DNA of 64,000 nucleotides from Halichondria panicea. Lineage: Eukaryota > Porifera > Demospongiae > Suberitida > Halichondriidae. The notes under the pieces are model-generated. The model was not told the origin of the DNA. It was given only the letters and a program-made list of their open reading frames with translations, and did no database searches. Shown here piece after piece: positions 19,219 through 32,931 of the stretch. The first letter of the stretch is position 1; each line of letters starts with the position of its first letter. The stretch covers positions 17,877,018 through 17,941,017 of the forward strand of contig NC_087377.1 in assembly GCF_963675165.1 (NCBI RefSeq), written 5' to 3'. Both the position numbers and the translations under genes were made by a program.

Positions 19219-22200
19219 CTACACTGTATTGGGCGGAGGGCGGTCATTGTCGGGTGTGACCTCGTTTTCTTGTGAGGGATGCTTCTTGAACGTGTCTATT
19301 GTAGCGTACTCCACCTGAAGATGTGATCATTTCATTCAATTGTCAGTATAATTATTATTATTGTCAATATGTAGACACAGCAGGAAGGGGCAAACACTTA
19401 AAATCAGTCTATTATTATAGTATAGTAGTCAAGACAACACTGAGAGCAGCTGAAACAGTCCCCATGCATGCCGTTGATTAAACGGGGGGCGTAGTTGAAC
19501 AATGGTATGGTCAAATTGGCAAATACTTTTATCGCTCAAATAATTATGAACTTTGATGACGATTAACAAAATTTGAAAGGTCCCTTTTTAAGCTTTCGGA
19601 AAATAAAAAAATCAAGGCTGCATACAAAAGCCCCTCACGCAACACACACACACACACACACACACACACACACACACACACACACACACACACACACACA
19701 CACACACACACACACACACACACACACACACACACACACACACACACACACACACACACACACACACACACACACACACACACACACACACACACACACA
19801 CACACACACACACACACACACACTTGGTACACGTACCCTCTCCTCTGTGGCTGTGGTTGGGGAGGTGGGCTTCTTTTGAGAGGGCGTGGCACTCGGAGAA
19901 CGGAAGGTCTCCAAATCAGCGTAGTGAAGTTCCTGCACAAGATACAATCAACACACAAAAAGAAAACACAAAGGCCATATTTTTTCTTTAACTGGGAGAT
20001 TTGGTCCAGAAAGGGAATCAATACAGCTCCATCAAAGAGCTACTAAATGCACATTTTAGTTGTGAATTTAGACAATCCCAACTAGAGTTATGGCCAGTCA
20101 AAGATAGCTATTAAAACAGGCTAATTTCAGAGAAAACACAAAGCTATAGCCGCCCATGCTTTCCCCTCAAAGTTGGAAGACTTAGACATGAAAGCAATCA
20201 TTGATCTAAGCACACCATTCCATAGAGCTAGCATAGAGCTACAAACGCATCCTTCACTATAGAAATCAGACTATCCCAACCAGAGTTATGGACATAATTA
20301 TATTCAAAGTTAGCCTGAAATTTAAATCCATCTTGTGCTCTGTACAGTAAATAATTATTGGACGTACTTTTGGCGCTCCTTCTAGTGGTATTCCAACGTC
20401 CAATGGAACCTCCTCGACCTTAACCCCAGCAGAGCTGTCAATGCGACTGTGTGTGTGTGGGGGCGGGAGAGTGTGTGAGTGTGTGTGGGAGTGGGCGGGA
20501 TAGGAATAATTTGATAATTATGAGAGATATAAACAGAATAATGCAGGAAATTTTCGCTGGTTAAAATGTTCGTATTGTACAGCTCAGGATAGTGACGTTG
20601 AACCTATTGCGGTAGTTTTAATTTTTGTATGATGCCCTACAATACGAAAATACGAAAATAACCCGCTATATGATATCGACAGAGAAAAATAAATGACTAC
20701 ACGATACGATTGAGCTGATAATAACATGACATGATAATTATGATATGACATGTGAACCTTGAACTTTACGTACGTTGTTTCATTTGCACTCAAATATAAA
20801 CTGGAGGAGAGAGAGAACGATGACATCATGTGACACGATAATTATGACTAGTGATGACACTATATGACATCATGCATGAGTGACAATTTGATTGGTCCGA
20901 TACCTGCTATTTACAATTAGGAACTTACTTTCTTGCTCTCTTGTTGCTAACACGATAGCTTCCTCCCTCTGCGGATAATCGAAGTACATGGATAATGGCT
21001 ACATAATGATTAGTATAGGCTGGCTGCTTTAGGTCCCCTTTATTTTAAGAGTACTAGAATCAGCTCTGTAACTAGAGTTCTGATGGTCCCCAAATTCAAC
21101 ATTGTATGATTTTATGAAAGCTTATAGCTTGTTTCAAATGGTATATCAAATTTCGTTATTTGCCAATTTGGCATACCATGGTCAAAGGCTGAAAATGACA
21201 AATTAGGGTTCTGACAAAATTTTAGATTTTAACACATCATCTGAAATTCACGGAAACCGGTTGATGACTCAATTTAAACCTTTTATGTAAATTAGGTTCT
21301 TTCTCTTTTTCATAATTTTTACTTTTATCAGGTCTACGCCACATTTTCAGAAGTGGTCAACTACGCATCCATTTTTTTCAGTTTGGCCCTAATCAGCAAG
21401 CTTAGGATAGATAATGACATATTAGGCTCTCTAACTGCATGTGGTTTGCTTTCTTGCAAGTGCACTGCAATCCACTGTACTAGTACTGTACTGGTATAGT
21501 CGATATAGTCGATATAGTCGATATAGTCGATATAGTCGATATAGTCGATATAGTCGATACAGGTGGTTTGCCTTAACATGGACGAGGAATGCTAACACAC
21601 TCAATGTTAAACTCACTGTTAATGGCAGCTATGATAAGCAGTGAAGCACACAAACAATTACCATGGCTTGTTGACTACGCTATTCAGTGCAGTCTTAATC
21701 AGTCCATCTTGTATGAATATCAATAGCTTATATAAAGTAAGGTTAACTGCTTCACACAAGCTATCCCATCAGGTCATTATTTACCAAAAAATGAGCCTAA
21801 GGCTAAACATAAAACAGTACTGAAAGGTGATGTAGTTGCTTACTACCCAAATTTGATTTAAGGTTTCTCTTGTTTTGGGTATAAAATTATATGCTTGCTA
21901 TCACTTCCTACGAAAACTTAAAATATGGGCAAACACCACTTAACATCAGCCAAATTAGCAGTCTAGGTAACACACACACTAAACCACATAATTATGTCAT
22001 TGCACATAACACCACTGTACGCTATTGTTCTGGTCTAGATACAACACTAAGATTAAGATATCTATCCCAAAGCACAATCACATGTAATGGAGGCACACAA
22101 CCTACTGTACTAGCACAATAACTAGAGATTACTATCTATCCCAAAGCTTTCACAATACAGCAAACCTTTCAGCTCACTGGAAATGTCAAAAACATAAGCC

Positions 22201-31600: not shown

Positions 31601-32931
31601 AAGTCGTGGATACCAATTCCACGTTGATGTTTGAAACCTCCATTCCACGTCCAAACTATCGAGATGGGGCCATTGTTGAACTGACTGTTACCTCTGGTTT
31701 TGTGCAAGGTGGTGATTTCATCTTCACTGTGAGGACTGAGAATCAATACGGGACAAGTTCATTCTCAGAACCTGTTAGAGTGATCGTGGCTGACTCAGAA
31801 GATGCACAACTACCAGGTATAGTAACGCTATAGATCCCCTTCATTTGGAGTTGGCTCTGTAACTAGAGCTGATGGTACAAATTCTGATTTTCTGAAAGCT
31901 TAGAAGCAGACCTTTTAAATGGTGTCAATCATTAAAACTATAGTTGTCAATTTGGCCGTACCATGGATTATTATGGCCCTGACAAAATTCTACATCATCT
32001 GAAAGGCCCCTCTCTAAGCTGTCAGAAAATTAACATTATGACCAACAGAACCAAATTTATGGCCGTTCAAAGATGCTCTATTGAAATGCTTTCGGTTTTA
32101 GTACTACCTTTAGTCTAATTTTATTGACTATAATTATATATTTCTCTTGCAGTGGCTGCTATAGCTGGTGGAATTGGAGGTGGTGTGCTGCTGCTGTTGC
32201 TAGTGGTGATCATCATACTGGTGGTGGTCTGTATTGTACGCAGCAATAAAACAGGTATGCATGTTATAGGCTTGTTGTATATAATGCATATAGGAATGCA
32301 TGGAATGCATGGAACGTACATGTTATGATGTAGTGGAGCTAATAAAGGCAAACTATACATAATTATAGCTAATTCCCTTTTTTCCTAATACCATGCAATA
32401 AATTACATCATTTCTTCTCTCTATACAGACACAGAATCTAAAATCCAACGTTGTGATTCTCTAGAGATGGTATCCAATCAGAACTACGGCAAGTTCAGTG
32501 AGGGGGTGGATACGCCCACAGCAGTACCACACAACACACACTACGATACTATTCCAGTCCGCTCTCCTTCTATCTACGATCAACTAGCTCCACCCCCCAA
32601 GGAAACGTTATCGGACAATCCATTGTATAGCAGCACAGGGGAGCTGAGATTGAGCGCTGTGTTTAACACTTACAATATGGTGCCCCCCAGAGGTAGTTCC
32701 CACCAACTGACCCCCAGTCATCAGAATATTCCACTACCCCCTCGTCCGGTGAGCGAGAGTGACCCCGCCCACTCCACCCCAAGCCCCTCCCACCCCACCT
32801 ATTCCACACCGTCAGCCCCTCTGGACATGCCCCCTCTAACGAACCACCACCTGATGGACAGCGAACACTTGTACGCTCATGCTACTAGTAACAGAGCACC
32901 ACTCTCAGAACCAACGTACTCTGAACTATAG
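28604..32931 (+). CDS. Receptor B: Ig/FN3 membrane receptor with ITAM-type tail, paralogue of A
   Basis: The nine exons are 28604-28652, 28734-29096, 29197-29496, 29579-29878, 29934-30227, 30568-30846, 31478-31816, 32153-32254 and 32429-32931 (843 codons with stop). Layout by residue: signal peptide 1-16; N-terminal domain 17-137 sharing FPTFRN and CGH with receptor A; two Ig-like domains 138-237 and 238-337; three FN3 domains 338-435, 436-528 and 529-641; membrane span in 642-675; tail 676-842. The tail, in one exon, holds YDTIPVRSPSIYDQL (residues 714-728), an exact YxxI-x7-YxxL ITAM spacing. It also holds NYGKF, LYSST, TYNMV, LYAHA and a C-terminal TYSEL, plus IPLPPRP, an SH3-type PxxPxR site. 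I infer an activating or adaptor-binding receptor. Ligand unknown. Confidence 0.85.
30445..30541. repeat. (CA)n microsatellite, about 95 bp
   Basis: It lies directly before the acceptor of receptor B exon 6 and serves as part of its pyrimidine-poor approach. Confidence 0.98.
30871..31254 (-). mobile_element. 45-bp minisatellite element in receptor B intron 6
   Basis: About six reverse-oriented units, some shortened, with the right end TTCAAATGAGGTGAAAAGGC. The left end is diverged. Confidence 0.75.

Follow-up and report, generated by a model that had tools for sequence, protein, structure and literature searches.

Paired receptors of vertebrates, those of the LILR/PIR, Siglec and SIRP families among them, usually have near-identical ectodomains that can share a ligand, and the activating member of a pair usually has a charged transmembrane residue and an adaptor that carries an immunoreceptor tyrosine-based activation motif (ITAM). 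Opposed signalling by ITAMs and by immunoreceptor tyrosine-based inhibitory motifs (ITIMs) is the core logic of natural killer cell receptors and other innate receptors. Vertebrate KIR, FcR and FcR-like proteins are paralogous receptors of the immunoglobulin superfamily (IgSF) with ITIMs or ITAM coupling (PMC2413239; this and all other papers are cited for the excerpts consulted). Outside vertebrates, opposed ITIM/ITAM signalling has been reported for allorecognition receptors of a tunicate and a hydroid (PMC12065747). Here we describe two adjoining genes of the demosponge Halichondria panicea, receptors A and B, whose predicted products have homologous ectodomains and end in unrelated tails, one of ITIM format and one of ITAM format. 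Among the titles and abstract openings that we searched, a scope outside which most of the subscription literature lies, there was no ITIM- or ITAM-bearing receptor of a sponge. The genes lie in a stretch of 64,000 nucleotides (the window; C1:17877018-17941017), about 200 kb from the end of the 18.14-Mb contig C1, in a genome of 131.5 Mb and 39 contigs. Positions without a contig name are those of the window.

Receptor A is encoded on the minus strand (28241-19219; 12 exons, 800 amino acids (aa)) and receptor B on the plus strand (28604-32931; 9 exons, 842 aa). The genes are head to head, with their start codons 362 bp apart across the gap 28242-28603. This divergent layout had been proposed in an earlier reading of the same DNA (the original prediction), and its coordinates, 19219-32931 with a gap of 362 bp, proved exact. 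The exon chains, as we infer them from the sequence, give both proteins the same order: a signal peptide (assigned by eye), three Ig-like units, three FN3 domains, one transmembrane helix and a tail. Pfam detected three fn3 and two Ig_3 stretches in each protein, the introns after exons 1 to 8 are in phase 1 in A (8/8) as in B (8/8), and all inferred introns of both genes have GT...AG ends. The common domain order and exon phases of the original prediction are thereby borne out. The features of the locus are as follows.

28184..28241, minus strand: receptor A exon 1, start codon and signal peptide (by eye)
27739..28116, minus strand: receptor A exon 2, D1, Ig-like unit with 42% identity to D1 of B
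27003..27299, minus strand: receptor A exon 3, D2, Ig domain (Pfam)
26451..26795, minus strand: receptor A exon 4, D3, Ig domain (Pfam)
25828..26127, minus strand: receptor A exon 5, FN3 domain 1 (Pfam)
25222..25509, minus strand: receptor A exon 6, FN3 domain 2 (Pfam)
24131..24433, minus strand: receptor A exon 7, FN3 domain 3 (Pfam)
23859..23981, minus strand: receptor A exon 8, transmembrane helix without a charged residue
20929..20968, minus strand: receptor A exon 9, 40-nt juxtamembrane exon, the least certain; phase 1 in, 2 out
20368..20446, minus strand: receptor A exon 10, tail, single open frame
19837..19932, minus strand: receptor A exon 11, ITIM 1 (LHYADL), 96 nt, phase 0-0
19219..19314, minus strand: receptor A exon 12, ITIM 2 (VEYATI) and stop, 96 nt
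28242..28603, no strand: intergenic region common to A and B, 362 bp, putative bidirectional promoter
28421..28459, plus strand: 39-nt promoter element, copy 1, with CATGCGCA and a GC-rich box
28497..28535, plus strand: 39-nt promoter element, copy 2, 92% identical to copy 1
28604..28652, plus strand: receptor B exon 1, start codon and signal peptide (by eye)
28734..29096, plus strand: receptor B exon 2, D1, Ig-like unit
29197..29496, plus strand: receptor B exon 3, D2, Ig domain (Pfam)
29579..29878, plus strand: receptor B exon 4, D3, Ig domain (Pfam)
29934..30227, plus strand: receptor B exon 5, FN3 domain 1 (Pfam)
30568..30846, plus strand: receptor B exon 6, FN3 domain 2 (Pfam)
31478..31816, plus strand: receptor B exon 7, FN3 domain 3 (Pfam)
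32153..32254, plus strand: receptor B exon 8, transmembrane helix without a charged residue
32429..32931, plus strand: receptor B exon 9, tail with 8 tyrosines, ITAM-format YDTIPVRSPSIYDQL and C-terminal YSEL

When A and B were compared by BLASTP, we obtained a single alignment of 639 columns with 32.6% identity (E = 8e-81). The membrane-distal units D1 (42%) and D2 (40%) are best conserved; the other four range from 26 to 37% (D3 30%; the three FN3 domains 30%, 37% and 26%), and the transmembrane exons are 22% identical. The ectodomains had been called matching, which holds for their paralogy and not for a close match, since identity is 33% overall and 42% at most per domain. Judged by their sequence, A and B go back to one single-pass receptor gene that was duplicated long ago in inverted tandem orientation. 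No close relatives of the pair appear to exist elsewhere in the genome. In searches of the genome that scored the best candidates only, the ectodomain of A recovered, at E ≤ 0.001, its own gene, that of B and a single weakly matching Ig exon. The ectodomain of B recovered its own gene and that of A; its remaining matches were exons with E values no better than 4e-5, several of them within about 10 kb of phosphatase exons. Among these best-scoring candidates there was no further close relative of either ectodomain. A sequence search of the PDB with D1 gave 0 matches at E ≤ 5; AlphaFold models D1 as all-beta, with low confidence (mean predicted local distance difference test 51.8). In the viral contigs we found no relative of D1 of B.

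The cytoplasmic parts of A and B are unrelated, as the original prediction had it. Tail A comprises 106 residues with three tyrosines. Exons 11 and 12, equal in length and phase, encode ELHYADLETF... and VEYATIDTF..., so that two of the three tyrosines stand in canonical ITIMs, LHYADL and VEYATI, which fit [SILV]xYxx[ILV]. These are the two inhibitory motifs that had been expected in A, and they are unlikely to have arisen by chance: the probability of at least two ITIMs in a shuffled tail A is P = 0.0024 (200,000 composition-preserving shuffles per test; all P values are per tail and uncorrected for the genome's many receptors). The single open frame of exon 10 runs to the end of the exon without a split codon, and each of the next two exons measures 96 nt; hence, exon 10 dictates the frames in which exons 11 and 12 are read. 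We also computed a codon score trained on the ectodomain exons, with open 32-codon intron stretches as the null (99% value 0.06). Exons 10, 11 and 12 scored 0.29, 0.27 and 0.15 per codon, all above the 99% value of the null. Since exon 11 is symmetric (0-0), in-frame skipping would be possible and would leave a form with one ITIM. With these motifs, and with the gene for an SHP-type phosphatase in the same genome, A is a good candidate for an inhibitory receptor. A genome search for paralogues of tail A (exons 10-12) returned the three exons themselves and one match at E = 0.24. We also considered a family of A-type ITIM exons, using the pattern YAx[IL]DxF, which was built on the second ITIM and excludes the first (YADLETF); the idea was rejected, the pattern occurring at 24 genome places including A versus 95 in a reversed control.

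A single 503-nt exon encodes tail B, in which there are eight tyrosines and a proline-rich stretch. The tail contains YDTIPVRSPSIYDQL, an exact ITAM (YDTI-x7-YDQL, within the general format YxxL/I-x(6-12)-YxxL/I), in which the tyrosines are 11 residues apart. In shuffled tails the probability of at least one ITAM with a spacing of 6-12 is P = 0.021, and with a spacing of 6-8 it is 0.0098. The codon score of the tail, 0.10, is the best of the three frames and lies below those of the ectodomain exons (0.29-0.38). B is a plausible but unproven activating partner of A. The 3' end of the exon (about 32829-32940) belongs to a duplicated block of roughly 100-230 nt that is found at eight other places on the same contig (17.59-17.99 Mb; L025-L032), with 86-97% DNA identity over 102-233 nt. 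We considered these places as related receptors and dropped them: they match the C-terminal end of the tail only and are recent duplicates of a block without the ITAM. Our search of the genome gave no second copy of the ITAM part itself, which is absent from all eight copies of the block. At least four copies of the block are convergent with members of a second receptor family, described below, whose tails carry VIYDTI.

Syk- and SHP-type partners in the organism were presupposed in the original prediction, and we found genes of both types in the genome. Their domain orders were read by eye from translated frames rather than from full gene models. A Syk gene (SH2-SH2-kinase) lies at C4:4842-4851k; its joined SH2 pieces have SYK as their best PDB match (E = 1.2e-39), and its kinase pieces are 56-65% identical to the kinase of Shark. 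Shark itself (SH2-ankyrin-SH2-kinase) lies at C9:5255-5259k. An SHP2-type gene, with tandem SH2 domains and a protein tyrosine phosphatase domain, was found at C3:8404-8407k, and its joined SH2 pieces match PTPN11 best in the PDB (E = 2e-81). Three frames of 406-417 aa on C2, each with an SH2 domain and a tyrosine kinase, were read as Src type. A Syk-family kinase of the sponge Amphimedon is in print (PMC9601881), and vertebrate-like Syk is described as present only in those invertebrates that have CARD-CC/Bcl10 (PMC5978004). Among the part of the candidates that was scored we also noted large arrays of tyrosine-phosphatase exons (C4:0.04-2.6 Mb) and of tyrosine-kinase frames (C10:1.70-1.94 Mb).

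Set beside vertebrate paired receptors, the locus has adjacent paralogues with homologous ectodomains (32.6% identity, 362 bp apart) and, at the level of motifs, an inhibitory ITIM member in A. It differs in that the ectodomains are only 33% identical (26-42% per unit) and FN3-rich, and in that there is one divergent pair, not a cluster of close copies. Unlike the usual activating member of a vertebrate pair, B has an ITAM-format tail of its own and a transmembrane helix without a charge. Of the pattern of vertebrate paired receptors, the paralogous pair and its ITIM member are present here and near-identical ectodomains are not; hence, we do not use 'paired receptors' as a family name for A and B. 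The fester co-receptors (FcoR) of Botryllus schlosseri, an animal in which Syk-family and shp-1 homologues are expressed, are likewise invertebrate IgSF single-pass receptors with ITIM or hemITAM tails and paired genes; however, they have a V-type Ig, a sushi and two C2-type Ig domains where A and B have three Ig-like and three FN3 units, and they form a family of 53 loci that are paired with fester-family genes and not with each other (PMC12065747). The same source describes the Alr proteins of Hydractinia as candidate allorecognition receptors with ITIM and ITAM motifs, a description that likens them to A and B. In the literature consulted we found no head-to-head pair of opposite sign among them, and a further paper (PMC11067881) contains none of these terms. 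The oyster receptor CgIgIT2 is another invertebrate IgSF protein with an ITAM in its own tail; unlike A and B it has five Ig domains, and the excerpt describes no inhibitory partner (PMC11999971). Finally, the order of Ig and then FN3 domains is that of LAR-type receptor phosphatases, contactins, DSCAM and Roundabout. Unlike the LAR-type phosphatases, A and B have no phosphatase domain by Pfam and have tails with tyrosine motifs instead.

The gap between the genes contains a 39-nt element twice, the copies being 92% identical. Its 24-nt core, with up to three mismatches allowed, occurs at these two places in the genome only. Within the element is CATGCGCA, of which the window contains nine occurrences against 1.0 expected; it resembles an Nrf-1 half-site. 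The element also contains a GC-rich box.

We tentatively favour, as the likeliest single reading, that A and B are contact receptors of an old pair whose phosphotyrosine tails have diverged and whose signals are opposed. An adhesion-type gene with an ectodomain of three Ig-like and three FN3 units would have been duplicated and inverted, giving rise to A and B. Upon ligand binding or cell contact, Src-type kinases would phosphorylate LHYADL and VEYATI of A, and phosphorylated A would then bind the SHP2-type phosphatase through the tandem SH2 domains of that enzyme, presumably giving a negative signal. B would act as a phosphotyrosine docking receptor, its YDTI-x7-YDQL being bound by Syk (or Shark) through the tandem SH2 domains of the kinase, with activation as the outcome, although both the binding and the activating sign are weaker predictions than those for A. 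The one short divergent promoter may place A and B in the same cells, where contact-induced activation and restraint could be balanced. If the locus works as its anatomy suggests, it would reduce ITIM/ITAM logic to two genes, the minimum, in a genome that also encodes Syk and SHP2. A more demanding form of this reading, possible but doubtful, is a true IgSF pair of opposite sign (ITIM-SHP2 versus ITAM-Syk), expressed in the same cells from one bidirectional promoter, the pairing having existed or independently arisen at the base of the animals.

Several observations weigh against opposed signalling by A and B, or against the gene models that it presupposes. With ectodomains only 33% identical, A and B need not have a common ligand. 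In Amphimedon, 11,379 genes have been counted that are head to head with start sites at most 1 kb apart, and bidirectional promoters appear to serve nearly a third of the genes (PMC4773876); since close head-to-head genes are so common there, the layout alone does not show co-regulation. The original prediction set both receptors under one promoter; the short divergent gap is real, and, being ordinary in that sponge, it carries little weight. The two tyrosines of the B motif can be read twice, THYDTI fitting an immunoreceptor tyrosine-based switch motif (ITSM) and SIYDQL an ITIM, so that the activating sign of B depends on the spacing and is uncertain. Thus, the one exact activating-type motif foreseen for B holds as ITAM format and is ambiguous as to its sign. 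The ITAM is, moreover, only modestly unlikely by chance, with P = 0.02 for one tail among many receptors. Tail A lies past a 2.9-kb intron with a 1.57-kb minisatellite, across which the exon joins are predicted. Exon 9 is the weakest link of the A model, with a score of 0.14 and a higher one, 0.28, in another frame, and exon 11 has a second open frame that scores 0.25 versus 0.27. The peptides encoded by exons 11 and 12 resemble each other (a score as high is reached in 32 of 5000 shuffles), but the likeness is lost when the motifs are masked (417/5000) and when the exons are compared as DNA (808/2000); hence, a duplication of the ITIM exon is not established.

Read as ITSM and ITIM, the B tyrosines would serve the SHP2-type phosphatase, and both receptors would be inhibitory or switch-type, the pair differing in strength or ligand. 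Both tyrosines do match these consensus sequences, an SHP2 gene is present, and ITIMs of the VIYDTI type occur in a nearby receptor family. We consider this reading unlikely, because a distance of 11 residues is ITAM format, ITIM/ITSM pairs being usually some 20-30 residues apart, and because a tandem-SH2 Syk exists that could use such a format. With Syk, Shark, SHP2 and Src-type genes all in the genome, both readings of B have effectors and neither is proven.

A and B could instead serve in adhesion or guidance, much as LAR, contactin or DSCAM do, with tails that dock general SH2/SH3 adaptors and with incidental ITIM and ITAM formats. Consistent with this, the ectodomain of B matches 32 PDB sequences at E ≤ 0.001, including titin, fibronectin, receptor phosphatases S and delta, DSCAM and contactin; the eight tyrosines and the proline-rich stretch of tail B would suit such adaptors, and at least one ITIM occurs in 28% of shuffled B tails (P = 0.28). 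The ITIMs at two of the three tyrosines of tail A and the exact ITAM of tail B, with the P values given above, argue the other way, and we regard this alternative too as doubtful. Errors in the gene models, such that the tail exons belong to other transcripts or that A ends soon after its transmembrane exon, would fit the position of tail A beyond the minisatellite intron and the 40-nt exon 9 with its higher score in another frame. However, the phases chain 1-2-0-0 to the stop with GT/AG at every junction, and exons 10-12 of A score as coding; we consider such errors very improbable.

Near the end of the contig we identified a second, recently amplified receptor family (C1:17750237-17996447; L041-L053), whose tails carry the conserved tyrosine motifs VIYDTI, EYETI and NPAYGL. 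Of 14 places found, 12 were translated (L052 and L053 were left out), and VIYDT[IV] is present in eight of these 12, so that A is not the only receptor of this genome with an ITIM-format tail. A relative on C10 (L054) has two other ITIM matches, and L049 and L050 have none; a match in the membrane part of L051 was excluded from the count. The pooled ratio of nonsynonymous to synonymous differences (pN/pS) was 0.38 for the tail and 0.49 for the membrane part among six distinct copies of seven (two being identical in DNA), from pairs that are not independent and with invariant VIYDTI codons. These values speak for coding constraint in this family.

About 60-80 kb from A, an Ig-repeat gene is followed by two Calx-beta-like stretches (L019 and L040; C1:17823232-17836399), with E values of 4e-4 and 5e-3, below the Pfam cut-off. 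The arrangement suggested an allorecognition locus, but we claim no link to sponge aggregation factors: Calx-beta occurs on many contigs, with 151 matches when 150 of 645 candidates were scored, and we found no literature support for a connection of the Ig/Calx-beta arrangement with sponge aggregation factors.

A 45-bp minisatellite unit is present in introns of both A and B (22213-23781, 24620-24727 and 30926-31189) in up to 35 copies, the array at 22213-23781 being oriented opposite to the other two. Two copies of another Ig/FN3 single-pass receptor, recognised by eye, lie on the minus strand at 33186-34744 and 62266-63556, and the former converges on the 3' end of B. Also by eye, near-identical sushi-like (complement control protein, CCP) exons follow one another at 35481-38059 on the minus strand, apparently in a repeat-expanded gene. 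To the left of the pair we noted exons resembling those of an FHIT-type HIT protein (14918-15211, minus strand) and of an eIF3f-like MPN protein (16018-16377, plus strand), both again identified by eye.

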